A stretch of DNA of 49,809 bases, taken from the NCBI GenBank assembly GCA_018303205.1, contig JAGVYP010000019.1, positions 1 to 49,809 of the forward strand. The letters are read 5' to 3'. The notes beneath the pieces are model-generated. The model did no database searches. It was not told where the DNA came from and saw only the letters and a list, made by a program, of their open reading frames with translations. The position numbers and the translations under genes were made by a program. Source of the stretch: Candidatus Woesearchaeota archaeon (lineage in GTDB: Archaea; Nanobdellota; Nanobdellia; Woesearchaeales; JAGWAF01). Below, piece after piece: positions 9,046 through 49,382 of this stretch (position 1 is the stretch's first letter; every line of letters begins with the position of its first letter).

Positions 9046-9172
9046 GAAGCTGTACCATCCTCAGGTCGAGCTTCTTAGACAAAAAGAAGAGACAGTGACA
9101 AAGGGGACGCTCCAGTCGGGAAACGTCACTCATCAACAAAAAAGATAACAAGCGAGAAGATGGTACAGCTTC
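9046..9172 (+). repeat. structured repeat family 2, copy 2a
   Basis: The terminal stem GAAGCTGTACCATC pairs perfectly with the 3' end (GATGGTACAGCTTC). Inside are the conserved CTCAGGTCGAGC, a hairpin CTTCTT/AAGAAG, an AGTGAC/GTCACT stem enclosing GGGGACGCTCC and CGGGAA, and the conserved 3' GCGAGAAGA. GCTT after the 5' motif can pair with AAGC before the 3' motif. It fills the gap between aspS and the next gene. Confidence 0.8.
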
Positions 9173-9210
9173 AAAAAGTAAAAAAGAAATAAAGATCTTT
9201 GGTGTAAAAC

Positions 9211-9474
9211 ATGCACTCTCATAAAACCCTACGTTTTTTTCAATCCTTTCAAGGTGTAGAAGAAGGAAGAAAAGGACAATGCACTCCAGAACAATGTGAA
9301 ACTCTCGATGGGAGAAAAGGAAGTGCGTGTTGCAAACTCGGTTATGTATGCCCTTGCTTAAAAAAGAATACGCAATGCGGTGTATATCAAATAAGGCCTC
9401 CTAATTGCAGAGTTTTTCCACGAACAAGAGAAGACTTAAGCTTAGTAAAAAATTGCGGATACTATTGGAAATAA
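9211..9474 (+). CDS. YkgJ-type cysteine-cluster protein (putative Zn/Fe-chelating)
   Basis: An 87-residue protein of the YkgJ-like family. Cysteines are spaced as in that family: CTPEQC, then GSACCKLGYVCPCLKKN, then the hallmark CGVYQIRPPNCRVFP and a final NCGYYW. These Cys residues are expected to hold zinc or an iron-sulfur centre. The biochemical role of the family is not settled. It is slightly short for the family but all the expected Cys positions are there, so it seems intact. It converges with tgt, whose stop is 1 base away. No distinct TATA box was seen; ATG 9211 is the first good start after the repeat. Confidence 0.75.
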   Translation: MHSHKTLRFFQSFQGVEEGRKGQCTPEQCETLDGRKGSACCKLGYVCPCLKKNTQCGVYQIRPPNCRVFPRTREDLSLVKNCGYYWK

Positions 9475-9475
9475 A

Positions 9476-10576
9476 CTATTTTTGATCTTGCATAAACTCT
9501 TTTTTAAATTTTTCAAATCTTTTTTCTTTAATTGCACTTTTTGCTTGTTCCAAAAGAGCATTCATAAAGTGTAAGTTATGTAGAGTGTTTAAGCGATTGC
9601 TGTGGGGTTCTTTCATTCTGAAAAGATGATGCAGATATGCCCTCGTAAAATGTTTGCAAGTATAACAGGTGCAGTCTTCTTCCAAGGGAGCAAAATCATG
9701 TTCATATCTTTTATTTTTAATATCAAGCGTTCCTTTCATCGTGAATAAAGAACCGTGACGCGCGTTCATGGTTGGAAATCGGGAATCCCAGATGTCTATT
9801 CCTTTGATGATACTCTCCAAAATCTGTTCTGGAACACCAATACCCATCAAATACTTAGGCTTTTCTTTGGGCAATTCTTTCATAGCAATATCAATAGCAT
9901 GGTACATATCCTCTGGTTTTTCTCCTAAAGCAAGTCCTCCTAATGCAAGCCCATCAAAATCAATCTGAGAGATTTTTTGTGCAGCAAGCTTGCGGAGATC
10001 GTCATGTAATCCGCCTTGACTAATACCAAATAAAAGATGGCCATCATTTTTTTTGTCGTGAAATGTTTTGCAACGCTCTGCCCATGCTGTTGTTTTTTTA
10101 ATGCTTTCTAAACATCTCGAATGTCCAGCTCCTAAGCGTGGCATATCATCTAAACACATATGCACATCTGCATTAATCATTAATTGAATTTCCATGCTCC
10201 TTTCAGGTGTGCAAAACACTTCTCCGCCATGGATAGGGTCTTTAAATTTTACGCCGTCTTGATTCGTCATGAGAAGAAAACTATCACTATACATCTGAAA
10301 TCCCCCAGAATCTGTAAAAATATTTTTTTTAAATTTCATAAATTGATGAATTCCCCTACACTTTTCAAAGACCTGCAATCCTGGTGAGAGAGATAACACA
10401 AAGCTATTCGCGATGATGCTTTGCGTTCCTAACATTTCTAAGTCTTTTCCATCAAAGTATTTCCCTACAGCCTTAGTAGCACACGGCATGAAAAAAGGAG
10501 TTTCAAAACTGCCATGCTGTGTTGTTAAGAGACCTACTCTTGCTTTGCCATCTTCTGCAATGATTTCAAAAGTCAT
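9476..10576 (-). CDS. tgt: tRNA-guanine transglycosylase, bacterial type
   Basis: A 366-residue TIM-barrel enzyme that exchanges a guanine base in tRNA. Key residues are in place: D89 in FTDSGGFQM, D143/D144 in CLDDMPR, GISQGGL, the GGLALGE loop near 213-219, nucleophile D264 in DIWDSRFPT, and the zinc site C302, C304, C307 with H333 (CTCYTCK to TLHNLHF). The YLHHLFRMKEPHSNRLNTLH zinc region and the length are those of the bacterial queuosine enzyme. Archaeal TGT for archaeosine at position 15 is longer and carries PUA domains, absent here. Target is presumably wobble G34, a notable inference in an archaeon. A minus-strand TTTTTAAATA box lies about 30 bases upstream. Confidence 0.93.
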   Translation of the reverse strand: MTFEIIAEDGKARVGLLTTQHGSFETPFFMPCATKAVGKYFDGKDLEMLGTQSIIANSFVLSLSPGLQVFEKCRGIHQFMKFKKNIFTDSGGFQMYSDSFLLMTNQDGVKFKDPIHGGEVFCTPERSMEIQLMINADVHMCLDDMPRLGAGHSRCLESIKKTTAWAERCKTFHDKKNDGHLLFGISQGGLHDDLRKLAAQKISQIDFDGLALGGLALGEKPEDMYHAIDIAMKELPKEKPKYLMGIGVPEQILESIIKGIDIWDSRFPTMNARHGSLFTMKGTLDIKNKRYEHDFAPLEEDCTCYTCKHFTRAYLHHLFRMKEPHSNRLNTLHNLHFMNALLEQAKSAIKEKRFEKFKKEFMQDQK

Positions 10577-10701
10577 ATACTGGAGGAAAGAGCAGTATTT
10601 AAAAAACTATCAGTATATTGATCTTCTTTATGATGAAATTAGTTTTTTCTTATTTTTCATTTTTTTAAGTACTTTTTCTTTCTTCTAGACTTTTTTCATA
10701 T

Positions 10702-10849
10702 ATGTCAAAAACCACCGATCATAGATTGGTGGCATGTCGCGACATGCCATTATCCATAGTGGTTTTTGAGCATGCTCAAAAATTTTCCTCTGGTAATTGT
10801 CCATTGGCTTCGAGCCACTCTTCAGAGACTAGTGGAAAATTTTTGACAT
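10702..10849 (+). repeat. structured repeat family 3, copy 3a
   Basis: Two branched units in tandem. Unit one: CAAAAACCAC/GTGGTTTTTG encloses three hairpins (CCACCGATC/GATTGGTGG; the perfect palindrome GGCATGTCGCGACATGCC; CCATTAT/ATAGTGG). Unit two: TCAAAAATTTTCC/GGAAAATTTTTGA encloses TGGCTTCGAGCCA and CTCTTCAGAG. The whole is bounded by ATGTCAAAAA/TTTTTGACAT, and the junction is the 20-base palindrome TTTTTGAGCATGCTCAAAAA. It lies between the divergent tgt and asnS promoters. Confidence 0.75.
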
Positions 10850-10999
10850 TTTTGAAACTTTTAACTTTCTCACACTTCTTTTGTATTTTTGTTTGTATTT
10901 TTATAAAAATAATAAACAGAAAAGAAAGGATATGCCAAAGATTAAAAAATAACAAAAGAAAGAGAACAAATGATAAAAAACAGCCCTGGAATCCAAATA

Positions 11000-11007
11000 T
11001 TTTTAAA
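11000..11007 (+). promoter_or_regulatory. TATA box of asnS
   Basis: TTTTTAAA centred exactly 25.5 bases before the ATG at 11029. It shows that asnS starts there and that the longer reading frame upstream, which runs through the repeat, is not coding. Confidence 0.65.
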
Positions 11008-11028
11008 CAAGCTCTTCTCCCTGTTTCT

Positions 11029-12327
11029 ATGAAAAAATACCTTACTCTTCAGGAAGCCATAGAACAAGGCTCAGGAAAGGTAGCTTTGCAAGGCTGGGTG
11101 TATCGCGAACGAGGCTCATCTAAGATAAAATTTCTTGTACTCAGAGATCATACTACTATTCTTCAATGTGTTGTTGAAAAAGAAAAAATAGGAGAAAAAA
11201 AGTTTAGTCTGATTGACAAAATACAAATTGAAACCTCTGTACGCTTAGAAGGAACGATCAAAAAAGATGAACGAGCTCCCACAGGATATGAAGTCAATGT
11301 GGAAGACCTTGAAATTGTAGGAATAGCAAATGAGTTTCCTATCCAAAAAGATCAGAGCGTTGAATTTTTAGCAGACAACAGGCATTTATGGCTCAGATCG
11401 AGAAGGATGACAGCAATTCTCAAAATACGGAGCACGGTTTTTCAAGCCATAGATACGTATTTTAGAAATAATAAGTTTTATTTGTACCACAGCCCTATCT
11501 TTTCTCCGAATAATTGCGAAGGAGGAAGCACAGTATTCAAAGTAGACTATTTTGGTAACGAAATGTTTCTCACACAGTCCTGGCAATTATATGCAGAAGC
11601 AGGTATTTTTTCTTTAGGAAATATCTACACCATTGCACCTTCCTTTAGAGCTGAAAGAAGCAAAACATCACGACATTTGACAGAATACTGGCATGCAGAA
11701 ATGGAAATGGTCTGGAACACTTTTGAAGATGTCATGCACCATGCAGAAGGAGTTCTCAAATTTATCCTGAAAGAAGTTTTAGACAAACACCAAGAAGAAT
11801 TCAAAATACTTGAAAGAGACCCCAAAAAGTTAGAGCCTGCACTGAAAAAACCCTTCATAAAAATGACCTATACTGATGCTTTAAAGATTTTAAAAGAAAA
11901 ATGTAAAATGGACGTTGAATGGGGAAAAGATTTGCGTACCCTAGAAGAAGAGAAACTGACCAAGTTATATGATGTGCCCTTACTGGTAACACGATATCCT
12001 AAAAAAATTAAAGCATTTTACATGAAAGAAGACCCTGAAAATTCTGAAGTAGTACTCGGAATGGATTGCCTTGCACCAGAAGGCTATGGAGAAATTATCG
12101 GAGGCTCACAAAGAGAAGAAAACGCAGAAGAAATTGAAAAAAGACTGCGAGAACAAGGAGAAGATCCCTCAGTTTATGGTTGGTATTTGGATTTGAGAAA
12201 ATACGGCTCAGTTCCCCACGGAGGATTTGGATTAGGTGTTGAAAGAGTTATTACCTGGATTTGCGGACTAGACAACATCAAAGATGCAATTCCCTTTCCC
12301 AGAACCATGTTCAGATTTACTCCATGA
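11029..12327 (+). CDS. asnS: asparaginyl-tRNA synthetase
   Basis: A 432-residue class II enzyme that charges tRNA-Asn directly. It has an OB-fold anticodon domain (KVALQGWVYRERGSSKIKFL), motif 2 (APSFRAERSKTSRHLTEYWH), the GYGEIIGGSQREEN segment, and motif 3 (SVPHGGFGLGVERVITWICG) ending PFPRTMFRFTP. YWHAEMEM and the PFPRTxxR ending point to AsnRS, not AspRS. The length fits the compact archaeal type. The start at 11029 is set by the TATA box 25.5 bases before and by alignment of the OB fold. Its stop overlaps, as ATGA, a 32-base duplicate of the start of the DUF167 gene, so the two genes were once directly coupled. Confidence 0.95.
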   Translation: MKKYLTLQEAIEQGSGKVALQGWVYRERGSSKIKFLVLRDHTTILQCVVEKEKIGEKKFSLIDKIQIETSVRLEGTIKKDERAPTGYEVNVEDLEIVGIANEFPIQKDQSVEFLADNRHLWLRSRRMTAILKIRSTVFQAIDTYFRNNKFYLYHSPIFSPNNCEGGSTVFKVDYFGNEMFLTQSWQLYAEAGIFSLGNIYTIAPSFRAERSKTSRHLTEYWHAEMEMVWNTFEDVMHHAEGVLKFILKEVLDKHQEEFKILERDPKKLEPALKKPFIKMTYTDALKILKEKCKMDVEWGKDLRTLEEEKLTKLYDVPLLVTRYPKKIKAFYMKEDPENSEVVLGMDCLAPEGYGEIIGGSQREENAEEIEKRLREQGEDPSVYGWYLDLRKYGSVPHGGFGLGVERVITWICGLDNIKDAIPFPRTMFRFTP

Positions 12328-12355
12328 GTATAGAACAATACATCAAAAACAATAC
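12324..12355 (+). repeat. 32-bp direct repeat, left copy
   Basis: These 32 bases are identical to 12637-12668, which begin the DUF167 gene (ATGAGTATAGAACAATACAT and 12 more). This left copy overlaps the asnS stop codon and then runs into a stop a few codons on, so it is a non-functional gene start stranded 313 bases upstream. Confidence 0.9.
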
Positions 12356-12396
12356 GTTCTGAAGCATTACCGTTCGCAGGCCGAAGAAGTCCATTG

Positions 12397-12574
12397 TGAT
12401 CATTGCCTTGGAAAAGGTCACCGTCCTCAGGTCGAGCGTGTAAGCCAAAAGAATCAACGAAGTTCAAGGGGATACTCCCCACGGGAATGAACGATAGAGA
12501 AACAAAAAGGTAACTACGCGAGAAGACGGTGACCAAAAAAGAAAATAAATGAGCAGCAAATCTCTGTGATGACC
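12397..12574 (+). repeat. structured repeat family 1, copy D, interrupted by family 2
   Basis: Family-1 ends are present: CATTGCCTTGG on the left and GAGCAGCAAATCTC plus GTGATGACC on the right, able to pair through CATTGC/GTGATG with G-U pairs. The usual middle (GATTCATGCA hairpin) is replaced by a complete family-2 element at 12416-12534. The copy lies between the two 32-bp direct repeats. Confidence 0.7.
12416..12534 (+). repeat. structured repeat family 2, copy 2b, nested in family 1
   Basis: Terminal stem GGTCACCGTC/GACGGTGACC. Conserved CTCAGGTCGAGC, then GCGTGTA able to pair with TACGC before the 3' GCGAGAAGA, and a GTTCA/TGAAC stem holding GGGGATACTCCCC and CGGGAA. Confidence 0.8.
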
Positions 12575-12636
12575 TTCCAAAAAGAAGAGAAAAAAAGATA
12601 AAATAAACATAAAAAAATGAATAGTGTAAATCAAAA

Positions 12637-12668
12637 ATGAGTATAGAACAATACATCAAAAACAATAC
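12637..12668 (+). repeat. 32-bp direct repeat, right copy
   Basis: The functional copy of the duplication. It is the first 32 bases of the DUF167 reading frame and matches 12324-12355 at every position; flanking bases on both sides differ. Confidence 0.9.
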
Positions 12669-12879
12669 CCTTTCCATTCTTGTGAAACCTAACTCTTCCA
12701 AAACAGAAATTCTTGGCTGGGATGAAGAAAAGCAAGCTTTGAGAATTGCAATTCATGCTCCTCCTGAAGACAATAAAGCAAATAAAGAACTTCTAAAATT
12801 TCTGAAAAAAACATTGAAAAGAAAAGTTGAATTGATTAAAGGTAAAACTTCAAGAGAGAAAGTAGTTAGGATTTCTTAA
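12637..12879 (+). CDS. DUF167/YggU family protein
   Basis: An 80-residue small protein of the DUF167 (YggU) family. It matches in order: SILVKPNSSKTEIL, LRIAIHAPPEDNKANKELLKFL and the C-terminal KVELIKGKTSREKVVRI. The family has a compact alpha/beta fold and occurs in archaea and bacteria; its function is not established. The start region is duplicated 313 bases upstream, overlapping asnS, so the gene was probably coupled to asnS before the repeat insertion separated them. Its last 14 bases overlap the converging TrmB-type regulator. Confidence 0.88.
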   Translation: MSIEQYIKNNTLSILVKPNSSKTEILGWDEEKQALRIAIHAPPEDNKANKELLKFLKKTLKRKVELIKGKTSREKVVRIS

Positions 12880-13630
12880 ACGGTTTAGACTGTTTCCAGA
12901 ATGCATCAAAATAAGACTTAAACGAATCTGCTATTTCTTTATCAATGATTTCAATAACCATTTCTTTGCTTTGTAAGAAAATAGCAGTCACATCTTTATA
13001 ATTAAGAAACCATGATGGCGTTTCAATACCTGGTGGCATGTAACGTGCTTCAGAACCTTTGTAACTATTTCTATTTAACAAAGTAGAACGTGGAGTGCCA
13101 TGATTAAAAAGCATTTTGCATGTAATACCTGCTTTTGCTCTTCGAAGGTGATCTCTTTTCCAATAAAGGTCATATCTTTCTTCTTGATTTGTAGGGATTC
13201 CCCAGGAATAAAATTCTTCGCCTTTCTTTAATTTGAGATACGTGTGTTCTGCAACGGTTATTATTCCTTTGAATCCTTCATAGATTTGTGCTTCACTTGA
13301 TTTTTTTGCAGATTGTTTTTGCAATTGCAATTGAGGAATCAGTTCATTCATAGCTTTTCTTTGTTGTTCAAGTGTTTTTTCTTTTTGGTCTATATAGTCT
13401 TGAAATTTAATAGGATCTTCTGCTTGATAGTATTTTGTTTTCTGTTTGACGATGTAAGAAACAAGTCCTTTAGTGATGAGTCGTTCAACCACTTCATAGA
13501 TTTTTGATCTTGCTACTCCTGACTTTTCTGTTAAAGGTCCAGAAGTGGTTGAACCTAAATAAAGAAGGGCAAGATAAACTTTAGTTTCACTTTCAGTTAA
13601 TCCGATGTCTCGTAGTACGGAGTAATTCAT
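12866..13630 (-). CDS. TrmB-family transcriptional regulator
   Basis: A 254-residue archaeal regulator. The N-terminal winged helix (LRDIGLTESETKVYLALLYL, then SGVARSKIYEVVERLITKGL) is typical of TrmB. A coiled linker (about 85-110) leads to a C-terminal effector or dimer domain, with the conserved EAQIYEGFKGI and FYSWGIPTNQEERYDLYW. Many TrmB proteins sense sugars, but the short effector domain here lacks a clear sugar-binding signature. It is divergent from the HD-domain gene at 13725, with about 95 bases between starts, and so is a candidate regulator of it or of itself. A second TrmB-like gene is at 37117. Confidence 0.85.
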   Translation of the reverse strand: MNYSVLRDIGLTESETKVYLALLYLGSTTSGPLTEKSGVARSKIYEVVERLITKGLVSYIVKQKTKYYQAEDPIKFQDYIDQKEKTLEQQRKAMNELIPQLQLQKQSAKKSSEAQIYEGFKGIITVAEHTYLKLKKGEEFYSWGIPTNQEERYDLYWKRDHLRRAKAGITCKMLFNHGTPRSTLLNRNSYKGSEARYMPPGIETPSWFLNYKDVTAIFLQSKEMVIEIIDKEIADSFKSYFDAFWKQSKPFKKS

Positions 13631-13695
13631 AGCATTACAAGAAGGAGCTTCTATATAAAACTAAGTATTGCTTAACCCTATAGGGGGAGGCGATC

Positions 13696-13703
13696 TTTAT
13701 TTA
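13696..13703 (+). promoter_or_regulatory. TATA box of the HD-domain gene
   Basis: TTTATTTA centred 25.5 bases before ATG 13725, which places the start there and not at the upstream in-frame codon. Confidence 0.55.
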
Positions 13704-13724
13704 TTTCCTATACTATACTCTGTT

Positions 13725-14789
13725 ATGGCTATTACAGAAAATGCTCGAATTACTGGTGCCCATTATACAGAAGCTAAAAAATCAGCGTGTATATTGTTAG
13801 ATCAATTAGGTAAATCATTAATCTATCATAGAAAAGCGCATACTACAGATTTTGTTGTACCTGCAGCATTAGCAATTGCAGAAAGAGAAGGATTTTCTTT
13901 AGAAGATAAATTAATTGTTAGTATTGCGGCTGCATTTCATGATACTGGTTTTGTTAGACAATATAATGCAAATGAGTCTATTGGTGCTCAATTTGCTGAA
14001 GATTATATGAGATCTTCTATGCAAGAGTATACAGAAGAGCAAATCAGATTAGTAAAAGATGCAATCATAAATACAGATATGAAAGAAGTACCTAAAACAA
14101 AATATGAAAAAGTGTTAAGAGACGCTGATTTAGCGATTTTAGGACATCATGATTTTGTTCAATGGAATAATGATTTAAGGAGAGAATGTAAATTACATCC
14201 TGAATCGCCTATGCATCAAGCTTCTTTGGATAGATCAAAATGGGCTCAATCACAATTAGGATTTATTTCATCTCATACGTGGTTTACAGAGGGTGCGAAA
14301 ACATTGTACGAAGAGTCTAAACAACAAAATATTCTTGCTTTCAAAAAGGAGTATCCATTGACACAACAATACGCAGTATTTGTAAGAAGTAAAAATTGTG
14401 ATGATAGTTCGGACATTGTCCTTCTCGTTCTAAGATTATCTGAAAGAGATTTGTCTAGTGCAGATTTTTTTCCAAAGGATGACGCGCAAAGATCTGAAGG
14501 GGGATATCCGCAAAAGATATGGCGATTTGATAGTCTTGAAGACGCAAAACGTAAAGCTGAAGAAACAGCTGATGGTAATTTTGTTCTTGAAGCGGGGGTT
14601 GTACCGATAGATACCGGAGAGCATCGTTATGTCGCCATGAGTCAAGAAATTTGTATGGGAGATCCAGTTTATGCTGTAAAAGTTGTAAGAACTCTTAGAG
14701 AAATAAGAAATTATGATAGAAAGAATTGGAAAGAAACATTGGAAGAGACATGCAAAAGAGATGAGCATTGGAAGCATATAAGCATATAG
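13725..14789 (+). CDS. HD-domain phosphohydrolase with C-terminal extension
   Basis: A 354-residue two-part protein. Residues 1-200 form an HD metal-dependent phosphohydrolase: H35/H39 in IYHRKAHTTDF, H72-D73 in AAFHDTGFVRQY, and DADLAILGHHDF later. The layout resembles small HD proteins acting on nucleotides or as signalling phosphodiesterases. Residues 225-350 are an extra alpha/beta region (QYAVFVRSKNCDDSSDIVLL) that I do not recognise and that may be sensory. The start is set by a TATA box 25.5 bases upstream. The TrmB-type regulator lies divergently next to it. Its place at the edge of the accessory stretch suggests a regulatory or defence-related role, which is speculative. Confidence 0.75.
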   Translation: MAITENARITGAHYTEAKKSACILLDQLGKSLIYHRKAHTTDFVVPAALAIAEREGFSLEDKLIVSIAAAFHDTGFVRQYNANESIGAQFAEDYMRSSMQEYTEEQIRLVKDAIINTDMKEVPKTKYEKVLRDADLAILGHHDFVQWNNDLRRECKLHPESPMHQASLDRSKWAQSQLGFISSHTWFTEGAKTLYEESKQQNILAFKKEYPLTQQYAVFVRSKNCDDSSDIVLLVLRLSERDLSSADFFPKDDAQRSEGGYPQKIWRFDSLEDAKRKAEETADGNFVLEAGVVPIDTGEHRYVAMSQEICMGDPVYAVKVVRTLREIRNYDRKNWKETLEETCKRDEHWKHISI

Positions 14790-14915
14790 AAACATCGGAT
14801 TTTTCGAATATTTTTCGGTAAAAAACTCAAAAGACGGAAAAAAGAACGACAAAAGCGAAATCTTTTCGGAAAAATAACCGCAAAGTATTTCTTAACTAAA
14901 AAACAAGATTATGAA

Positions 14916-15176
14916 ATGTCTTTCATAACATTAATTGTAATTGAAAAAGAAGATATAAAAATTATTCCTGAGCATTATAATACGATTATTAGGATTATGA
15001 ATCATGATTTTAAGAATGCGAAGCATTACCTAAAAGAAGCTGAAGAAATTCCGCTAGATGCAGGCTACCTTCTTGTTGATATGAATAAAAAAATTATCAT
15101 AAATGGGCAGTCAGCTTTTGCACGTCAGCATCTCCATCCCAAATACAGCACTGAATGGTTCTGGATCGAGGTGTAG
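14916..15176 (+). CDS. small protein, unknown
   Basis: An 86-residue protein with an alternating hydrophobic pattern (SFITLIVIEKEDIKIIPEHY) and a middle part GYLLVDMNKKIIINGQSAFA that looks like a beta-rich segment. No known family is evident. It starts 127 bases after the HD gene, across AT-rich sequence with several short CGG-containing inverted matches (about 14807-14875) that may form a hairpin or terminator. It ends 8 bases before the DUF4258 toxin-like gene, so it may be in the same transcript. It could be a third component of that toxin-antitoxin unit or an unrelated small gene. Confidence 0.5.
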   Translation: MSFITLIVIEKEDIKIIPEHYNTIIRIMNHDFKNAKHYLKEAEEIPLDAGYLLVDMNKKIIINGQSAFARQHLHPKYSTEWFWIEV

Positions 15177-15184
15177 TATACAAT

Positions 15185-15397
15185 ATGAATATTATTTTTA
15201 CTTCCCATGTGAAAGAAAGGATGGAACTAAGAAAAATCTTGAAAGAAGAAGTAATAGATGCCATCCTCCATCCAGATATAATCATAAAGGAATACGGTGA
15301 ATATTATTTTCAAAAGAAACTGGAAAGAGGCACTATTGAATTGCCCTGTGAGAGAACGGAAACTTATATAAAGGTGATTACCGTATACTGGTTGTAA
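15185..15397 (+). CDS. DUF4258 toxin-like protein
   Basis: A 70-residue protein. SHVKERMELRKILKEEVIDA followed by ILHPDIIIKEYGEYYFQKK matches the DUF4258 pattern (a His, then RM and R, followed by a helix and a beta-hairpin), a RelE/BrnT-like family thought to act as toxins. The C-terminal YIKVITVYW strand is typical. The ATG at 15185 is preferred over an upstream in-frame codon because it opens directly on the FTSH motif. One base separates its stop from the DUF2283 gene, and DUF4258-DUF2283 pairs are a recurring putative toxin-antitoxin arrangement. Activity here is untested. Confidence 0.75.
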   Translation: MNIIFTSHVKERMELRKILKEEVIDAILHPDIIIKEYGEYYFQKKLERGTIELPCERTETYIKVITVYWL

Positions 15398-15398
15398 C

Positions 15399-15611: not shown

Positions 15612-15657
15612 ACTGTTGATTAAGATTTTACAATTAAAAACGAACTTAATTTGTACT

Positions 15658-15680
15658 ATGATGAAGAAGAGATTTCTTAG
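15658..15680 (+). repeat. 23-base direct repeat, left copy
   Basis: ATGATGAAGAAGAGATTTCT plus TAG; it recurs at 16250-16272 with one mismatch. The two copies bracket the small reading frame at 15683 and the HTH gene at 15875. Confidence 0.75.
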
Positions 15681-15682
15681 AA

Positions 15683-15862: not shown

Positions 15863-15874
15863 AGATGGTATAAA

Positions 15875-16237: not shown

Positions 16238-16249
16238 GATTATAGGTAC

Positions 16250-21433: not shown

Positions 21434-21493
21434 AAAAAAAAGAAAAGAAAACTGGTTTAAAAGGCTTTTCTATTGAAAGACTCTGTCCCAAAT

Positions 21494-21590
21494 CTCACTA
21501 TCGTTCGGGTTAGCAGCTTCTCGTGTAGCTCTTCTTTTTGTTGATGAGTGCCATTTCCCGTCTGGAGCATCCCCTTTGTCACTATCTTAT
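21494..21590 (-). repeat. structured repeat family 2, copy 2e, 5'-truncated
   Basis: Read on the minus strand, AGTGACAAAGGGGATGCTCC, CGGGAAATGGCACTCATCAA and ACGAGAAG match the 3' two-thirds of copy 2a. The 5' half with CTCAGGTCGAGC and the outer stem is missing; instead the sequence joins directly to the stop codon of the HTH/membrane gene. It is the only minus-orientation copy. Confidence 0.7.
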
Positions 21591-22372
21591 TTTTTTCTCA
21601 TATAATCAACCAGTAAATATACACCTAAAGAAAAAAGAACTCCGATGAAAAACCATAAAGCAATATTATGCCACAAAGAAGGCTCTGTGCTTATTTGTTG
21701 GATAATCGTTTCTTTTGTAACAACTTGAGCAAGCTCTTGTCCTGTTGTATTTGCTATTTCATCAGAAACATCTTGGGCTAGAGAAGGCACTGCTTGTTCA
21801 AGAACAAGACTTGTTCCTTCCTCAGCTGATTTCTCTACTGCAACCTCTGAAGCCATACGAAGAGCATCATAGCTTGCTTCCTCAACAAAAGGTTGAGCAG
21901 CTTGCTGCACCATCTGCTGAGCTACAGGAGTACTTTCTGTAAAAACCTGTTCTTGCATGGTTTGAGCAACAGGAAAATATCGCGAAAGCCATTGGACAAG
22001 AGCAGTAATGCCTACTGCAGCAAGAAGAACAGGAAGGATACTCCTCAGTTTTTCCTTAAATCCATGTACCCCCTTAGGTGCAATGATAATATACTGATTA
22101 GCAAGACTGTAATGATTAACCTCTTTTCCTTTGACTGAATAATGGAACTCCTCAATTTTTACAAGGCCACCTTTAACTAAGAGTTGGAGATTGTAATGAA
22201 CAGTAGGCAAGGGAACAGCTAAATCTTGAGAAACTTGACTTTCAGTAATGCTTTCATGTTCTGAAAGATAGTCAAGAATTCTTCTACAGGTAGCATTACT
22301 AATCACTTGAGCGAGTTCTGCAGCTTTTTGATCTTGTAAGGAAACCAGTAAAAACTTATTTTTCTTTCCCAT
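21587..22372 (-). CDS. membrane-anchored ArsR-type HTH protein
   Basis: A 261-residue protein. Residues 20-90 form a winged helix (ISNATCRRILDYLSEHESIT, then SQVSQDLAVPLPTVHYNLQL), of ArsR or helix-turn-helix-20 type. A transmembrane segment at about 112-130 (ILPVLLAAVGITALVQWL) is followed by a Gln/Ala/Val/Glu-rich extracellular stretch and a second transmembrane segment near 237-256. This suggests a one-component sensor with its DNA-binding head in the cytosol and its central part outside the cell. The stop codon abuts a truncated family-2 repeat, so the original 3' end or terminator may have been altered. Target genes are unknown. Confidence 0.75.
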   Translation of the reverse strand: MGKKNKFLLVSLQDQKAAELAQVISNATCRRILDYLSEHESITESQVSQDLAVPLPTVHYNLQLLVKGGLVKIEEFHYSVKGKEVNHYSLANQYIIIAPKGVHGFKEKLRSILPVLLAAVGITALVQWLSRYFPVAQTMQEQVFTESTPVAQQMVQQAAQPFVEEASYDALRMASEVAVEKSAEEGTSLVLEQAVPSLAQDVSDEIANTTGQELAQVVTKETIIQQISTEPSLWHNIALWFFIGVLFSLGVYLLVDYMRKK

Positions 22373-34570: not shown

Positions 34571-34592
34571 GTATTCCCTTTATTATTATACA

Positions 34593-34697
34593 GAAGGTCA
34601 TCACCTTGGAGCAAAATCAGGAGAAAGCCTGATTCATGCAAGGCTTTCGACGCAAGATCTCTGATCAACGGAAGAGTAAATCTCCGTGATGACCTTC
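34593..34697 (+). repeat. structured repeat family 1, copy E
   Basis: Terminal stem GAAGGTCATCAC pairs perfectly with GTGATGACCTTC, so CATTGC/GCAATG of other copies is here CATCAC/GTGATG, a compensatory change. CCTTGGAGCAAAATCAG is conserved; the hairpin is GAAAGCCT/AGGCTTTC closing on GATTCATGCA; the tail carries AGAGTAAATCTCC. It lies between the converging tmk and dut genes. Confidence 0.8.
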
Positions 34698-34777
34698 AAA
34701 AAGATCACATTGATAAAAAACAAACAAAAAAATTATGAAAAAAGAAGATAAAAAAAAATTAAAAGAAGATATAACCT

Positions 34778-42196: not shown

Positions 42197-43387
42197 TCAC
42201 ACCACGCTATAATAATCTTCCAAGACAATACCTCCTATTTCTGCAAGGTCTCTGACAAGATAGAGTTTTCCTTCACCTATAGCAGTGAGATCTTTTGCAA
42301 AATGTGCAGCATCTTTGTCAAGAGAAATACCAATCAAAGAGATGGTAATACCATGCACGCGCGCTTGAGCAACTGCTTCCAAGGATTTTTTACGCGGATC
42401 TTCACCTACAGTAGGCTGCGCATCAGTCAAAATCACAAGATGTTTTGTGCCCTGCTGATGAGAAAAGAGCAGGATGGCTTTTTCTATCATCAGAGCAAAA
42501 TTCGTTTCACGAGTTGCTCGTATCGTAGTTATCTTTTTCAGCAAAAGAGGAAAGTTGAGAGTAGGAGCAGCTTCTTCTGTTATTTCAGAACCAAAAACGA
42601 GTAAGCCAACTTTGTCTTTTTTATCAATGGCTTTGTATGCTAATCCTATTCCGGCTTTTTTGCACATCTCTATTTTTCTTCCCTTCATACTGCCTGAAGC
42701 GTCTAGCGCATAAATGATGCTTACTTGCCCTTTGCTTTTTCTTTCAAAGGTTTTCAAATCAGAAGATTGCACATGATGATGCCCTCTTCTGAGAGCAAGA
42801 TGCACAGACTTTTTTACTGCAAGATCTTTATAGCGATCACCTTGGTGAAATAAACGCACGTCATCTTTTTCACCATAATGCGTTTTTTTCTTATGGAGTT
42901 TTTCACCAAAATACCCATGAGGAATAAGTTCTTCCAATTCCTGCATGTACAAGACTAAAGATGCAAGGGAAACCCCTTTTTCAGTAACTACGCCAAGATC
43001 ATCAATCAAGCCATCATCTTTTAATTTTTCAATCGCTGATTTGATATTTCCCTGCAAAGAACGCTGAAATTCAGGAATGTTGATGTTTTTCTTCACATAG
43101 CTTGCATCGTATCCGGAAAGCAAGCTGATAAGACGTTCTCCCATGATCTGCTCTGCAAGCCGGTAATTTTGCACCAGGTGCTGAAATGCCAAATCAGGAG
43201 AAAAACTCTGCAAGTTATTGTTAAACGCTTCATTAATAATTTTTCCTTCATCAAGAGTTTTTTTATCATTTTCCAGAACAGACTTCATAAGCTTGTCTTC
43301 TTCAAATTGAGAATTAAGATTTCCTTGAAGTTGTTCTATTTCTTCAACTTCCTCTGGAATTTGAGTAAGGTTCTCAGGGAACATCAT
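42197..43387 (-). CDS. VWA-domain protein, partner of MoxR ATPase
   Basis: A 396-residue protein. The C-terminal half is a von Willebrand A domain with an intact MIDAS: DASGSM, then the conserved Thr region (TIRATRETNFALMIEKAILL) and LVILTDAQPT. The N-terminal half is helical. Like BchD- or CoxE-type proteins it is expected to act with the MoxR ATPase encoded just before it to insert metals or remodel protein complexes. It starts with two adjacent ATGs (43387, 43384) inside the last 14 bases of the ATPase gene, so translation is coupled. Confidence 0.88.
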   Translation of the reverse strand: MMFPENLTQIPEEVEEIEQLQGNLNSQFEEDKLMKSVLENDKKTLDEGKIINEAFNNNLQSFSPDLAFQHLVQNYRLAEQIMGERLISLLSGYDASYVKKNINIPEFQRSLQGNIKSAIEKLKDDGLIDDLGVVTEKGVSLASLVLYMQELEELIPHGYFGEKLHKKKTHYGEKDDVRLFHQGDRYKDLAVKKSVHLALRRGHHHVQSSDLKTFERKSKGQVSIIYALDASGSMKGRKIEMCKKAGIGLAYKAIDKKDKVGLLVFGSEITEEAAPTLNFPLLLKKITTIRATRETNFALMIEKAILLFSHQQGTKHLVILTDAQPTVGEDPRKKSLEAVAQARVHGITISLIGISLDKDAAHFAKDLTAIGEGKLYLVRDLAEIGGIVLEDYYSVV

Positions 43388-44348
43388 CCTCTTCTTCACC
43401 CTGCTCTTCAGCAAAGAGTTTGAGCTGATTTTGCACAAATTGTTCTCTGCTTTGAAGATATTTTACAGAAGGCTTTAATTCAAGACGATGAGGAACTACT
43501 GTTAAGACAGCATCTTGCAAATCTTGAAAAGTAACTTGTCTTCTCTTTGCAAGAAACGCATTTGCCTGGGCACGCTCATACAATCCCAAAGATGCTCTTA
43601 CGCTAGGCTTTTGTTCAACATCTTTATGCTCTCTTAACAAACGAATAAAAACAACAGCTGCGGTAACGAGTTTATCATGCATGTCAACGGCTAACTTTTT
43701 TCCTTTCAGGAGAACAATCTTTTTTTCAAGCTCGGCAGATTCAGGATACGACATAGGAATCACATCAAACCTATCAAGAAAAACACTACTCAGCTTTTCT
43801 GTGCTACTATCTTCTGGATTCATCGTACCAATAAAGATAAAGTTTGTAGGAAAATCAACCGTAAAAGAACCTAAGGTTGCTCTTCCTTCTTCTAGGACTT
43901 GAAGTAATGCGTTTTGCAACTTTTCAGGACAACGATTCACTTCATCAAAAAAAAGAATGCCCTTATTTGCCTTAAATATTTTTCCAGGAGTAAAAGCTTC
44001 TACAGATAAAGCGCCGTACTTAAGCGCTTTTTCAGGATCAATGTCTCCCAATAAGTCTTCTACGGTTAGATCAGGGCTTCCTTGAATACGAATAAAGCGT
44101 TCTTCTCCTTTGATGACTTTTTTTGTTTTTTTTCCATGAATTTCTTCTTCAACTTCAAGATCAGGCAAGCTCTTCGCAATATTTCTTGCAAGCGTTGTCT
44201 TTCCGATGCCTGGTGGACCAATAAGAATAATGTGCCTTTGCATGAGCAAAGCAGATTTGATATGCCTTTTCGTGACTTCTTGTCCTAAAATAGAAGGAAA
44301 AGGATCTGGTGTGTTCAGGAAAATCTTTTCAAAGTTCGTAGTAATCAT
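43374..44348 (-). CDS. MoxR-family AAA+ ATPase
   Basis: A 324-residue ATPase. Walker A GPPGIGKT (residues 44-51), Walker B ILFFDEVNRCPEKLQNALLQ, sensor 1 FIGTMNPED, Arg-finger FLDRFDVI and a C-terminal lid with VRASLGLYERAQANAFL all fit MoxR/chelatase ATPases. An insertion near residues 70-85 (VEEEIHGKKTKKVIKGEERF) is a helix-2-type insert seen in this clade. It pairs with the VWA protein. A minus-strand TATAAATA box lies about 30 bases upstream, and a family-2 repeat lies further upstream. Confidence 0.93.
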   Translation of the reverse strand: MITTNFEKIFLNTPDPFPSILGQEVTKRHIKSALLMQRHIILIGPPGIGKTTLARNIAKSLPDLEVEEEIHGKKTKKVIKGEERFIRIQGSPDLTVEDLLGDIDPEKALKYGALSVEAFTPGKIFKANKGILFFDEVNRCPEKLQNALLQVLEEGRATLGSFTVDFPTNFIFIGTMNPEDSSTEKLSSVFLDRFDVIPMSYPESAELEKKIVLLKGKKLAVDMHDKLVTAAVVFIRLLREHKDVEQKPSVRASLGLYERAQANAFLAKRRQVTFQDLQDAVLTVVPHRLELKPSVKYLQSREQFVQNQLKLFAEEQGEEEDDVP

Positions 44349-44467
44349 GGCCCCCTATAGAAGAGGAGTTTATTTATAAAAGTATGGGTAGCCTATTTAG
44401 GATTATTTATTTTATGTTCTTTTTTGAGTATGAGAATGATGAAGAAAAAAAATAATAGAGATAGTGT
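44349..44467. other. promoter region of the MoxR gene
   Basis: AT-rich sequence with a minus-strand TTTATAAATA element close to the MoxR start and a GGGGGCC run before its ATG. Otherwise featureless up to the family-2 repeat. Confidence 0.4.
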
Positions 44468-44598
44468 ATTTGTTTAGCATCCTTAAGTCAAGCGTGTAGG
44501 CGAAAAGAATATGCGAAGTTCAGGGGGACGTCCCTTACGGGGCTTGAACGAAACATAAGCAAAAAGAATGACTACGCGAGAAGATGCTAAACAAATAC
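44468..44598 (+). repeat. structured repeat family 2, copy 2c
   Basis: The longest terminal stem of the family: GTATTTGTTTAGCATC and its perfect 16-base complement. The 5' motif is CTTAAGTCAAGC in place of CTCAGGTCGAGC. GCGTGTA can pair with TACGC before GAGAAGA. The inner stem GTTCA/TGAAC holds GGGGGACGTCCC and CGGGG. Confidence 0.8.
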
Positions 44599-44658
44599 GA
44601 GATGAGAATTAAAGAAAAAAATTAAGGACATTTTTGTAAAAGAGAAAAAGAGGACTCC

Positions 44659-46032
44659 CTACTGTTTGGGAGGGGAGCGCCTCTTCTTTTGGGTTTCTGG
44701 AGAGGATTGTTTTTTAGGAAGTACTCTTGCCATGATGAGAATGGCAACAATTGCAACTAAGATAAGAAGGATTAAGAAAGGAATGTAAAATCCGCTTGTT
44801 CTGAAGCTTTGTGAGCTTGAAGTTGTTGCGTAAATACGATTATCTCCTAATACAAGAGTAGGTTGTTGTACAACAGCAGGTTGTGCAACGTTTCTCTGAG
44901 GAGGTTGCTGTGATGTAGTTTGAGGAACAGATGGTTCTTCTCCGCAAGAGATTTGAATACTGCCTGTCTGAGTATCAGTAATGCGACCATCATCTGCAAG
45001 AACGCTGACTTCAAAATAGGAAAGACCTTCTTCCCCTTGAGAAGGCAAGGAAAGAGTAAAACGCACATTTTCTGTGTCATCTTCTTCTACTTCTATTCCT
45101 GAAACTTCTTCATTAATACGGAGCTTGTCGTTCAGTACTTGAACGGTTACATCATCTTGATTATCTTCACCAATATTTTCTATACCCACCCGAAGTGTCA
45201 CTTGCTGACCACAGGATGCCTGCTGAGGATGATCCAAACTTCGGATAATAACAAAATCATCTTCACGTTCTATTTCAAAAGACGCATTGATTCTTGAACC
45301 ATGCCTTGCTTGATTTTCATCAGTACCGCAAACAAAAACTGAGACAGGATACGTGTCATCATCTTCATCAAAATCAATATCAAAAGAGATTTCTTCAATA
45401 ACATCTCTGTCTGCTCTGAGATCATCCACATCAACATCTTCATTGATATCTAACTCATCTGATTCTATAAATAAAGTGATATCTTCAATGTCAAAGCCGT
45501 CATCATCAAAGTCATTTTCTATTTCTGCGATAAGAGTAATATCAGAATCTAATTCAAGATCTATGGTGTCTCCTTCATCAAAGGACTCTGAGCCCCCATT
45601 AAATTCAATGTCCACATCTTGAAAGACAAGATGATTTGCTCTCTGCATGAAAAGATTGGTTTGAGCAGATGAAGTATTAGTTGTTATGGATATAGTTCCT
45701 AGAGAAAATGCACTGGGAACACATTCAGGAGTAACTGCGTGAAAAGAGAGAGGAATAGTACCTGTAACAGTAATAAGAGCACTTTGACCTACCGTAAGAT
45801 TTTCAGGGATACCTGAAAATTGAATTGCATAAACACCACTTGCTGTAGTAGAAAGGGTAAAATTGCTTAAAGTTTCATTTCCTGTATTGGTAATGCGAAA
45901 TTGAGCTTGTACTACTCCTGCTTCTTGCCCTTCATTTCCCAGAGTTACATTTACATCGCTGGTAAGATTTGCGAGAATAGGTGCTGAAAGAAGGATGAGC
46001 AAAATCAGGGAAATAATAGTTAGTTTTTTCAT
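44659..46032 (-). CDS. secreted acidic CARDB-like protein with C-terminal anchor
   Basis: A 457-residue cell-surface protein. A signal peptide (KKLTIISLILLILLSAPILA) is followed by beta-rich modules: residues 25-125 have the pattern FRITNTGNETLSNFTLSTTA, and a domain near 250-360 (VTLRVGIENIGEDNQDDVTV) looks like CARDB, a cell-adhesion-related fold. Between them is an Asp/Glu-rich region (around 140-240, DEDDDTYPV) suited to calcium binding. A Pro/Gln/Val linker, one transmembrane helix (FLILLILVAIVAILIMA) and a basic tail close the protein. It is typical of archaeal surface proteins; the partner is unknown. Confidence 0.75.
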   Translation of the reverse strand: MKKLTIISLILLILLSAPILANLTSDVNVTLGNEGQEAGVVQAQFRITNTGNETLSNFTLSTTASGVYAIQFSGIPENLTVGQSALITVTGTIPLSFHAVTPECVPSAFSLGTISITTNTSSAQTNLFMQRANHLVFQDVDIEFNGGSESFDEGDTIDLELDSDITLIAEIENDFDDDGFDIEDITLFIESDELDINEDVDVDDLRADRDVIEEISFDIDFDEDDDTYPVSVFVCGTDENQARHGSRINASFEIEREDDFVIIRSLDHPQQASCGQQVTLRVGIENIGEDNQDDVTVQVLNDKLRINEEVSGIEVEEDDTENVRFTLSLPSQGEEGLSYFEVSVLADDGRITDTQTGSIQISCGEEPSVPQTTSQQPPQRNVAQPAVVQQPTLVLGDNRIYATTSSSQSFRTSGFYIPFLILLILVAIVAILIMARVLPKKQSSPETQKKRRSPPKQ

Positions 46033-46263
46033 ACGAGTTGCCTCTGTTCGTACATAACCCCTTCCCCCACATACTAAAAATAGTCAGTCTATAAATAGAT
46101 TAGCTAGGCAAAAAGAATAGTGCAAACTTTTAGAGGTATTATTTTAGTTTTTTATTAAAAATAAGACTTTTTAGAACTTTTTTATATGAAATAAGATATT
46201 TTAGTGCTTATTAAATAAAAATAAGTGTTATTTATACTTTTAAAAATAAGATAAAAAGAGTGA
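46033..46263. other. 231-base gap without a gene
   Basis: Very AT-rich sequence upstream of the CARDB-like gene with several repeated AAATAAGA-type short motifs (46160-46255). It carries a minus-strand TATAAATAGA-type promoter element near 46090. No structured repeat copy. Confidence 0.4.
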
Positions 46264-47067
46264 TTAGAAAAGCTGTACTTCTATAATAGCAGCTATCGTA
46301 ACAAGAACCAAGCCTAAAACAAGAAATATAAGGCCATCAGTAATAATATGATGAAACTTCTCTGAAAACAAGTCTTCCCTTAAAACTGCCTTGGAAACAA
46401 CACCACCCACAATAGCAGCTGAAAAATAGCTTAATGCCTCTGTAACCATATGCGGCAAGACAGGAATGATCGTTGCTCCAAAATAATACAAAGCATTACC
46501 TGAAGCAGCAAAAGCAGATTGCTGAGCAACATACCCAAAAATAGTACCCCAAACAGAAGCGTTCCACACAATAAAAAGAATAGAACCAGCACCATACACA
46601 AAAGACAAGACAAGACAAACAAAAAGCACTTTGATATTATTGAGAAGAATACTCCATAAAATATCACTCTGAAAAGCCTGCCCTGCAAAACCACCCACAG
46701 CTAATTGAGTAGAAAAGAGATGAAACACAGAAGCTTCAGGCATCAACAACGCTAACAAAGCATATGTCATAAAAATACCCATAAAAAGAAAAAAGTAAAT
46801 ACCAAAAATATCCTTATGATCTAAAAAAAGCATTTTCAACGATAATTTTTTTTCCCTAATCTCAACGTTTTCTTCATCAAGAAGAAGACGATTCAAAGAA
46901 GGAATTAACAAGACAGAAGTAAAAGCGACAGTCATCATACTCGGATTTTTCCCAAAAATAAGACGCGCACTGATAATACCAAGAATAGAATAACACACAC
47001 CAAGAAGAAAAGCATACCGTGGCTTTCTCTCAATCCAATCTGTCCTAAATAATTGTTCAAATACCAT
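46264..47067 (-). CDS. SpoIIM/DUF95-family membrane protein
   Basis: A 267-residue membrane protein with about six helices. ILLNNIKVLFVCLVLSFVYG, then FGATIIPVLPHMVTEALSYF and AAIVGGVVSKAVL, match the SpoIIM (stage II sporulation M, DUF95) pattern with its PHxxxE core. Archaeal members have no sporulation role; a link to membrane remodelling or transport is suspected. Its start overlaps the stop of the preceding gene by 1 base, so it is third in an operon with the ABC1 kinase. Confidence 0.82.
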   Translation of the reverse strand: MVFEQLFRTDWIERKPRYAFLLGVCYSILGIISARLIFGKNPSMMTVAFTSVLLIPSLNRLLLDEENVEIREKKLSLKMLFLDHKDIFGIYFFLFMGIFMTYALLALLMPEASVFHLFSTQLAVGGFAGQAFQSDILWSILLNNIKVLFVCLVLSFVYGAGSILFIVWNASVWGTIFGYVAQQSAFAASGNALYYFGATIIPVLPHMVTEALSYFSAAIVGGVVSKAVLREDLFSEKFHHIITDGLIFLVLGLVLVTIAAIIEVQLF

Positions 47068-47429
47068 TATCGTTTTGTTTTTTTACTTTTTTGATCAAGA
47101 ACATGGGATACTACCTTTTCTGCGCGTTTAACTACTCTTTTTGCTGTGCGCTTTACAACAGATTTTCCCAGATGAGCGACTGAACGAACAACAGGCATTG
47201 CACGTTTTTTTACACCCTTAACTTCTTCACGAAGGAACGTATGCACCTGTTTTTTCTCTTGCTTTATTTCCTCAAGTACCATACGCTTTAACTGCTTTGC
47301 CTCTGCAGAAGTAAGAACCCCTGACAAGCTCAGAGCTTTGATTTCCTTCATCACTTCTTGTTCTGTAACATGAGCAAGTTGTTTTCCTCTAGACAAGAGG
47401 GAAATGAGATAATTGCGCAAACGCTCCAT
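47067..47429 (-). CDS. basic helical protein in the ABC1-kinase operon
   Basis: A 120-residue, Lys/Arg-rich helical protein. Residues 15-60 contain VTEQEVMKEIKALSLSGVLT, and the C-terminal half is strongly basic (KSVVKRTAKRVVKRAEKVVS). No family is recognised. It lies between the ABC1 kinase and the SpoIIM-type gene in one operon. A basic helix next to membrane proteins might bind membrane phospholipid or DNA; nothing further can be said. Confidence 0.6.
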   Translation of the reverse strand: MERLRNYLISLLSRGKQLAHVTEQEVMKEIKALSLSGVLTSAEAKQLKRMVLEEIKQEKKQVHTFLREEVKGVKKRAMPVVRSVAHLGKSVVKRTAKRVVKRAEKVVSHVLDQKSKKTKR

Positions 47430-47460
47430 ATCCCTTTTCCAGAAGATAAGATATAAAAAT

Positions 47461-49146
47461 CTATCGCAACTTACTCCATCTACCTTCTTTAAAAATAGAA
47501 AGGATCAGAAACAAACTAATGATGCTCGCTCCGCTGAAACAAAGAAGTGCAAAAAGAGGCATGCCCCATAGATAAGGTTCTATGTCTGTTTGCATCAACA
47601 ATGCTCCTCCCACAATAAGACTTGCAATGATCATAGAAAAAGCAAGCCTGTTACTACTTCTATCCATTTCTTGAGTAAGATGGGTAACTTCTTCTTTTGC
47701 AACAGCAACATTCAACTTTCCCTTTTGAATCGTATCAAGTACACTCAACATCTCTCGAGGAACAGCTTTCAAAGTATCTTTCAATTGAAGTGCTTCCTTG
47801 AGCAAATGCTGTGGTTGCACACTCTTCTTGATTTTTTGTTTTAAAAATTGCGTAAGATAAGGCTTTGCAATGCTCACAAAATCAAAATCAGGATCAAGCT
47901 GGGCACAGGTTGCTTCTACGGTTACTAAAGCTTTACCTAACAAAATCATGTCAACAGGCAAGCTTACATGACGAGCAAGACATGCATCAAAAAGATGATG
48001 CAACATGGAAGTAACACGCACTTCAGAAAGCGTAGTTCCATACCAACGCATGAGAATGTCATGAGCATCACGCTTTAATGCTTCAAGATCAGTATCTTCA
48101 TGCACTTCTCCCATACGCACCAAAGCATTCACAACACCTTGCACATCCTTTTCAAGAAGAGCTAAAAAAAGATCAATGCCTTTTGAGCGCAATTCCGCAT
48201 CTAAACTTCCTACAATGCCAAAGTCAAGAAGAGCAATTTTCCCCTTAGGCAAAATAAGAATGTTTCCCGGATGCAAGTCTGCATGAAACACGTCAGATGC
48301 AAAAACTTGCTGCAATGCAGTTTCCACAAGCTGCTGCGCAATCTGCTTTCTCGGAAAAACCGTTTTTGAAGCAAGTAAATCTGACAGCTTTTTTCCTTCC
48401 ACGTGTTCCATCACTAAAATAGAAGTCGTTGATAAGGAACTATACACTCTGGGAATTTTGATAAGAGGAGCATGCTGAAAAGCAAGACCAAAGAGTTCCA
48501 GATTTCTTCGTTCAAAACGATAATCTAACTCTTTTTTTGTATAACGCTCAAACTCCTGCAGGATAATAAGGGGAGAAAAGTTTTCATAATGATAATACTT
48601 ATCTAATTTTCCAAAAAGATAATAGAGAATATCAATATCCTCTGCAAAGATCTCCTGAATATGGGGGCGTTGCACTTTTACTACGACTTGAGTTCCCTCA
48701 TGTAAGGTTGCACGATGCACTTGACCTACCGAAGCGCTGCCGAGAGGCTTTTCTTCAAAAGAAGAAAAAACTTCTTTGAGTGGTTTTCCTAATTCTTTTT
48801 CAACAGATTGTTTTGCTTCTGAAAAAGGAAAAGAAGGAACCTGATCTTGGAGTTTACTAAACTCTTTACAATACGCAAGAGGAACCAAGTCAGGGCGTAT
48901 GCTCAACAATTGTCCAAGCTTAATGTACGCCCCCCCTAATTTCTCCATAGACCTACGCAAGCGCACTTCAAGAGGAATGTAATCCTTCTGAGTAAACTGG
49001 TAGAGCTGAATATTTTTATGAAGAGGAAGATGCCAACGCAGTTTCATTTTATCAACAAAGTATCCAAGACCTTCATTCACAAGAACAAGAACTACTTCGC
49101 GTATCCTTTCTGCATCACGAAAAGTATTGCGAAGATGTGATTTCAT
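47461..49146 (-). CDS. ABC1/UbiB-family atypical kinase
   Basis: A 561-residue protein of the UbiB/ABC1/ADCK family. KxGQ is in GGAYIKLGQLLSIRPDLVP, the Ala-rich loop is PLGSASVGQVHRA, the Lys strand is TQVVVKVQRP, and HADLHPGNILIL with LLDFGIVGSLD carries the catalytic and metal Asp. Two transmembrane helices close the C-terminus (near 505-560). Bacterial and mitochondrial members support quinone lipid synthesis; here the lipid target is unknown. ATG 49146 follows AGAGGAA and a TTTATAAAG box about 38 bases upstream, so the longer open frame running through the family-2 repeat is rejected. Confidence 0.93.
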   Translation of the reverse strand: MKSHLRNTFRDAERIREVVLVLVNEGLGYFVDKMKLRWHLPLHKNIQLYQFTQKDYIPLEVRLRRSMEKLGGAYIKLGQLLSIRPDLVPLAYCKEFSKLQDQVPSFPFSEAKQSVEKELGKPLKEVFSSFEEKPLGSASVGQVHRATLHEGTQVVVKVQRPHIQEIFAEDIDILYYLFGKLDKYYHYENFSPLIILQEFERYTKKELDYRFERRNLELFGLAFQHAPLIKIPRVYSSLSTTSILVMEHVEGKKLSDLLASKTVFPRKQIAQQLVETALQQVFASDVFHADLHPGNILILPKGKIALLDFGIVGSLDAELRSKGIDLFLALLEKDVQGVVNALVRMGEVHEDTDLEALKRDAHDILMRWYGTTLSEVRVTSMLHHLFDACLARHVSLPVDMILLGKALVTVEATCAQLDPDFDFVSIAKPYLTQFLKQKIKKSVQPQHLLKEALQLKDTLKAVPREMLSVLDTIQKGKLNVAVAKEEVTHLTQEMDRSSNRLAFSMIIASLIVGGALLMQTDIEPYLWGMPLFALLCFSGASIISLFLILSIFKEGRWSKLR

Positions 49147-49256
49147 AGATTCCTCTTTTTCTCTCTTCTCACGAATGTTCTTTATAAATGTTGTGTTCAA
49201 AAAAAATGAAAGAAAAAAGGAGGACAAAAGAGGAGAAAAGTAGTGTTTACTATCAT

Positions 49257-49382
49257 GAAGCGTTACCGTCCTCAGGTCGAGCTTCTGAGACAAGATGAAG
49301 AAACACTGACAAGAGGGTTGTCTCATCCGGAGAATGTCAGTTATAGACGAAAATATTGCAAGCGAGAAGACGGTACCGCTTC
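49257..49382 (+). repeat. structured repeat family 2, copy 2d
   Basis: Terminal stem GAAGCG-T-TACCGTC with GACGGTACCGCTTC, one mismatch. Conserved CTCAGGTCGAGC and GCGAGAAGA. Inner stem CTGACA/TGTCAG encloses GAGGGTTGTCTC and CCGGAGAA. It lies between two divergent genes, upstream of the promoters of both, so it is not part of either leader. Confidence 0.8.

Follow-up and report, generated by a model that had tools for sequence, protein, structure and literature searches.

The Ty1 and Ty3 retrotransposons of yeast integrate upstream of promoters, at a fixed distance, and leave them intact. In prokaryotes, miniature inverted-repeat transposable elements (MITEs) such as Correia, ERIC and Chunjie are mobilised in trans by insertion sequences (ISs), as reviewed in PMC10969869. 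Intrastrand purine triplex repeats, named TM_ECO and PIT, are known from bacteria, and no association of TM_ECO with transposons was found (PMC4666352). Here we describe a family of structured repeats in a 49,809-nt stretch of DNA from a Candidatus Woesearchaeota archaeon (contig JAGVYP010000019.1, positions 1 to 49,809), hereafter called the window, which is number 45 among the 74 contigs of its genome. The repeats probably represent a single conserved fold, ~118 nt long, carried as internal cargo by non-autonomous MITEs in Woesearchaeales-like archaea. With up to ~50 copies per genome, the family is abundant enough to influence both gene neighbourhoods and the assembly of genomes in Woesearchaeales.

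The original prediction placed five copies of the repeat in the window, and all were recovered at 9046-9172, 12416-12534, 44466-44598 and 49257-49382 on the forward strand and, as a truncated copy, at 21494-21590 on the reverse strand. A covariance model (R1) was built from five copies, four of them in the window. Searched against the 1.42 Mb genome, it gave 47 matches at E<=1, and about 45 remain at E<0.01. When R1 was run on the window with filters off, all loci beyond the five copies had E >=0.04, except that two of these palindromes reappear as a shadow on the reverse strand. The best-conserved part, written as a relaxed pattern, matched 88 stretches in a scan of 84,980 species genomes, and among the pattern matches listed all lie in metagenome-assembled genomes labelled Woesearchaeota, Nanoarchaeota or 'archaeon'. 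A second model (R2), built from 48 diverse copies, was applied to 371 genomes sampled from the phylum and found the core at E<=1e-4 in 61 of them, in 49 genera that all fall within the order of the window; viral contigs and plasmids gave no match to the core. The expectation that no known Rfam family would be matched held at gathering and at relaxed thresholds, tRNAs in neighbouring DNA being the only matches.

The outermost stem of the core, P1, has about 10-14 bp and is followed by a loop whose 5' side reads CTCAGG/ATAAGG. Next comes P2, in which a tandem G.A step separates two base pairs from 4-7 further ones. Inward of P2 lie a large internal loop rich in A, then P3 (6 bp) and the inner hairpin P4 (YYC..GRR, closing a loop of five nucleotides, NNNCG). 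Conserved unpaired loop nucleotides are present as well. The original prediction of a compact folded element with extra covariation in a larger alignment is well supported: among 101 copies gathered with R2, 25 of 26 pairs vary on both sides, and double-change cells number 578, against 140 in shuffled controls and 63-122 in controls with a slid partner strand. In an earlier alignment of the 48 seed copies, two-sided change was seen in 22 of 27 pairs. The tandem step (n=99) reads GA/GA in 46 copies, AA/TT in 37 and GA/TC in 9, and is tandem G.A or Watson-Crick in 92 of 99 copies and in 46 of 48 in the seed set; such an alternation would be structurally sensible only for this strand. A kink-turn was ruled out because two co-varying base pairs stand between the loop and the tandem G.A step. 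Some copies carry additions to the fold. In L035 (G000:C66:36815-36993) an extra stem-loop beginning AAACGCGTAAAAATCGTGTATTTTTAGCGTGCC is inserted in P3, with part of the insertion also found in L044, and the truncated copies L045, L046, L052 and L053 have a different insertion in common, CAGATTTTTAAGAAAAATCTGGTAAAAACAGG.

At two levels of P4, covariation extends to a third strand, a 5' purine tract, in the pattern of base triples (G.G-C or A.A-T). Columns 79-81 of this purine tract follow the P4 purines level by level, beyond mere repetition: the triple 79/88/98 is GCG in 79 cases and ATA in 14, with 6 exceptions, and the triple 80/89/97 is GCG in 82 and ATA in 12, with 5 exceptions. By hand-mapping from locus lists, ATA at level 79 occurs in ~11 genomes with differing P1 and P3. 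Relative to the pyrimidine strand the correspondence runs in parallel, giving a mirror repeat like that of purine-motif triads. The core has the marks of an intrastrand triplex, namely mirror-symmetric purine tracts, a complementary pyrimidine tract and co-varying triads, of which two co-vary and one is constant. An antiparallel hairpin of the 5' G-tract predicts links 79-90 and 81-88; these were not seen, and A79 follows T88, not C90. That hairpin was rejected as the sole cause of G-tract conservation, as it leaves A79 with T88 unexplained. We infer that the core bears a putative purine triad, in DNA or in RNA.

Paired arms might instead be kept only through palindrome correction at the DNA level by template switching, with no selection on the fold. 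The scarcity of G-U and A-C intermediates in P1, and likewise in the terminal inverted repeats (TIRs) described below, speaks for this process. It leaves unexplained, however, why tandem G.A alternates with Watson-Crick pairs, why a third strand co-varies in parallel and why unpaired nucleotides are conserved, and we consider it improbable as a full account. Because palindrome correction cannot yield the alternation or the third-strand covariation, we favour selection on the fold itself, most likely for element multiplication or persistence, while regarding this as the least certain step of our interpretation.

About half of all copies examined lie in miniature transposons of 156-254 nt with TIRs and target-site duplications (TSDs) of 8-9 bp, typically in the order TIR, P1-core, small 3' hairpin, TIR. 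Examples of the TIRs around many copies are GGCTCTGTCCTAAA, GGCTCTGTAGAAAA, GGGTGTGTCCCAAA and GGCTTCCCTGAAAA. A first set comprised 66 elements with TIRs and a flanking duplication, perfect over 9 bp in 37 and at least 8 bp long in 54, and a later validation set added 38 further elements with TIRs and TSDs; element lengths are mostly 156-168 nt, clustering at 163-168 nt. Two IS5-family elements of 1.0-1.1 kb in this genome (L182, L185) have the TIRs GGCTCTGTAGAAA and GGCTAATATGAAA, and GGCTAATATGAAA also bounds L158, a core-bearing MITE of another genome. Their transposases match NF033579 with E-values of 2e-40 and 4e-38, although at 139.1 and 131.6 bits they fall slightly below its cut-off of 140, and match PF01609 above its cut-off. 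The elements therefore show the TIRs, short length, constant TSD length and IS partner with the same TIRs by which MITEs are recognised. IS1595 (PF12762) and IS1 (PF03400) were rejected as partner transposases, with either no matches or two weak unrelated ones. A third IS, with TIR GGCTCTGTCCTAAA and 9-bp duplications, is seen only as contig ends; it breaks the assembly at C18/C23, C64/C59 and C29/C19 of G000, where the matching 9-bp duplications permit contigs to be linked.

A second type of transposon has TIRs GTAATACTTCAGC or GTATTTGTTTAGC and 8-bp duplications, and two inverted cores are present in some of its members. As two transposon types with differing TIRs carry the core, one fold is common to different transposon ends. 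The two-core arrangement was observed in L101, L143, L149, L167, L231 and L241, elements of ~330 nt with the TIR GTAATACTTCAGC or close variants. A second small arm stands 3' of P1' in TIR elements such as L109 (CGAGC-GNNA-GCGAG, with tandem G.A) and varies to CTTGC-GAA-GCAAG or CTAGC-GTA-GCTAG; its GNA/GNNA loops resemble stable DNA mini-hairpins.

The repeat had been suggested to be a ribozyme or a non-autonomous mobile RNA. A non-autonomous mobile element is borne out by the TIRs and TSDs, while mobility as RNA is unsupported because the signature is that of DNA transposition by IS5-family DDE transposases. For a self-cleaving ribozyme or an RNA-borne mobile element one could cite a compact, conserved sequence in many copies with conserved loop nucleotides; against it stand the lack of any Rfam match, ribozymes included, and the TIRs with fixed-length target duplications typical of DDE transposition. 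Nothing was found that favours a ribozyme in particular, and from the sequences this reading appears highly improbable.

The elements are inserted at promoter edges. A TATA-like hexamer starts 20-25 nt from the element edge in 47 of 66 cases, compared with 4.0 in shuffled flanks (maximum 11) and 1.8 when sites are drawn at random from the same loci (maximum 6), and in the validation set it does so in 28 of 38, against 2.4 by chance (maximum 8). Seen from the gene side, the flank profile has an AA resembling the transcription factor B recognition element (BRE) two bases ahead of the TATA box, and the gene on the TATA side starts a median of 46 nt from the element, a distance consistent with leaderless promoters directed away from it. 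TATA boxes driving transcription into the element were ruled out: judged by gene starts and the BRE-like AA, the promoters face away. The autonomous ISs lie at the same TATA distance as the MITEs, both being found ~20-24 nt from the TATA box on its upstream side, so that the leaderless promoter is left intact. Element orientation relative to the promoter shows no preference (27 left, 22 right). At one promoter edge, L182 (G000:C66) abuts an inverted core MITE, i.e. a single site has received repeated insertions.

The simplest reading is that the insertion spot is chosen by the transposase and not by the core, and we infer that the transposase may be tethered to the TATA-binding protein (TBP) or transcription factor B (TFB). 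The fixed place ~45 nt upstream of leaderless genes would also suit a cis-regulatory element, such as a riboswitch or upstream activating site, set at promoters for gene control. Such a role is distinctly improbable given that the elements occur in either orientation, with exact target duplications and in tens of copies per genome, and that the ISs themselves insert at the same spot.

Copies lacking TIRs in this genome are associated with the 3' ends of genes. Among 21 checked, 13 lie <=100 nt after a same-strand stop codon, 2 are antisense, 3 are both, 1 is neither and 2 are without flank. The 13:2 sense bias has a one-sided binomial probability of 0.004, and none of 10 TIR copies of this genome were positive in the same test, which replaced a looser 60-codon stop-to-stop version that proved too noisy. 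TIR-less copies of other genomes have no sense bias (3:3), and the bias toward 3' untranslated regions (UTRs) may therefore be particular to the lineage.

These copies raise the possibility that the fold is mainly a functional RNA, whether a 3' UTR regulator, a processing or stability element or a small RNA, that has been picked up repeatedly by transposons, the TIR-less window copies being its working form. The sense bias, the tandem G.A alternating with A-U, which is sensible on this strand only, and the strong fold-energy z-scores all point in this direction. Against it, TIR copies have no orientation preference relative to the promoter and none lie near 3' ends in this genome, the non-TIR copies of other genomes are unbiased, and G-U pairs make up just 1-2% of pairs, their excess over A-C (50:30, with relatedness uncorrected) being weak. 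With G-U pairs so scarce and this excess so slight, the pair counts neither establish an RNA function of the fold nor rule one out. We consider the functional-RNA explanation possible, at rather less than even odds.

We prefer to regard the fold as MITE cargo. An IS5-family transposase would move the MITEs in trans, steered by the promoter or by promoter-bound TBP/TFB. The core, as folded single-stranded DNA or RNA with a short purine triad, would be kept while TIRs change and would aid the multiplication or persistence of the element. TIR-less copies in this genome would be retained mostly in sense just 3' of genes and transcribed there as 3' UTR structures. Several observations, in addition to the scarcity of G-U pairs and the 3:3 ratio in other genomes, weigh against this reading. 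Thermodynamic folding of single sequences favours the 5' G-tract/CCC hairpin over P4, and DNA-level palindrome correction could also keep the arms paired. No core was seen inside the ISs, so its role in mobility is hypothetical. Mobilisation of the MITEs by the IS is proposed from TIR identity and TSDs. Clear TIRs and TSDs are missing from most window copies: a right TIR stands at 21479-21495 and a TIR-like stem with a partial duplication at 44466-44598, and the copies at 9046, 12416 and 49257 have none. As a more speculative extension, and with considerable doubt, the fold might be a selfish module in its own right, exchanged among 9-bp IS5-type elements, two-core elements with 8-bp TSDs and TIR-less 3' UTR copies while riding a promoter-tethered transposase.

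Within the window, the junctions described originally are shared in large part. The 5' junction CTCAGGTCGAGC is exact in three copies, is CTTAAGTCAAGC in the 44468 copy and is absent from the 21494 copy; the 3' junction GCGAGAAGA is found in the four full copies, and the truncated one has ACGAGAAGC instead. The outer stem, said to differ in each copy, is of the same GAAGC..TACC type at 9046 and 49257, a type that recurs in several further copies of the genome. Fold-energy z-scores against shuffles are -4.9, -4.0, -4.5 and -2.4 for the four full copies.

The 9046 and 12416 copies belong to the TIR-less group that follows stop codons. The first (9046..9172, +; R1 E 7e-33; P1 GAAGCTGTACCATC/GATGGTACAGCTTC) begins 18 nt past the stop codon of a same-strand gene for a class II (D/K/N type) aminoacyl-tRNA synthetase (7270-9027). 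The second (12416..12534, +; R1 E 7e-24; P1 GGTCACCGTC/GACGGTGACC) lies 88 nt past the stop of 10702-12327(+) and is enclosed by a Family-1-like element, with one half on each side, at 12390..12575 (+, TCATTGCCTTGG..GAGCAGCAAATCTCTGTGATGACC). The copy at 44466..44598 (+; R1 E 6e-28) has the outer stem GTATTTGTTTAGC..GCTAAACAAATAC, of which GTATTTGTTTAGC exactly matches the TIR of elements with 8-bp TSDs in other genomes, and its flanks, GAGATAGT and GAGATGAG, form a partial duplication only. The copy at 49257..49382 (+; R1 E 2e-32; P1 GAAGCGTTACCGTC/GACGGTACCGCTTC) is close to the contig end, upstream of an ABC1-kinase gene (-). The truncated copy (R1 E 7e-10) was rightly called truncated and is, more exactly, the 3' half of a TIR-type element at 21479..21590 (-). 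It keeps the core from P3 on, the 3' strand of P1, the second arm CGAACGATAGTGAG and the right TIR (GACTCTGTCCCAAATCT on the + strand, 21479-21495); its 5' half is absent, and it lies beside the stop codon of 21587-22372(-).

Family 1 itself (TCATTGCCTTGGAGCA...GATTCATGC...GAGCAGNAGATCTCCGCAATGACC) is a separate structured family with window repeats at 649-751, 2755-3050, 4445-4560 and 34590-34700, three of the four directly after same-strand stop codons. Four TIR-less copies of the core contain the 5' half of Family 1.

These elements amount to a large, naturally occurring alignment of a mobile structured module from uncultured archaea, in which the fold is conserved and the transposon ends are not. 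The apparently precise promoter-edge targeting by an IS5-type transposase amounts to safe-site insertion as in yeast retrotransposons. Insertion at a fixed distance upstream of intact promoters is common to these elements and to Ty1/Ty3; unlike the latter, the element here is a DDE DNA transposon of an archaeon, placed at protein-coding promoters by a putative tether. With IS5-family insertion sequences (NF033579, DDE_Tnp_1) the core MITEs share TIRs (GGCTCTGTAGAAA / GGCTAATATGAAA), ~9-bp duplications and promoter-edge insertion, whereas only the ISs carry a transposase and they have no core. Like TM_ECO and PIT (PMC4666352), the core has a purine-motif triad signature on one strand, is intergenic and is sometimes found in inverted pairs; it differs in its sequences, in the opposite strand order (purine-pyrimidine-purine), in having ~3 triads only, set within a 118-nt fold, and in being archaeal and transposon-borne. 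The literature searched held no description of such core-bearing elements, and in the limited literature searched none was found of promoter-edge targeting by an archaeal insertion sequence. Prokaryotic MITEs (PMC10969869) are similarly short, intergenic and hairpin-forming, with TIRs, target duplications and tens of copies, but here an internal fold with a base-triple signature is conserved with covariation over 49 genera while the TIRs change, insertion is sharply fixed in distance upstream of archaeal TATA boxes, and some elements have two inverted cores. The family is new as a MITE variant, with a conserved triad-bearing core and promoter-edge targeting.

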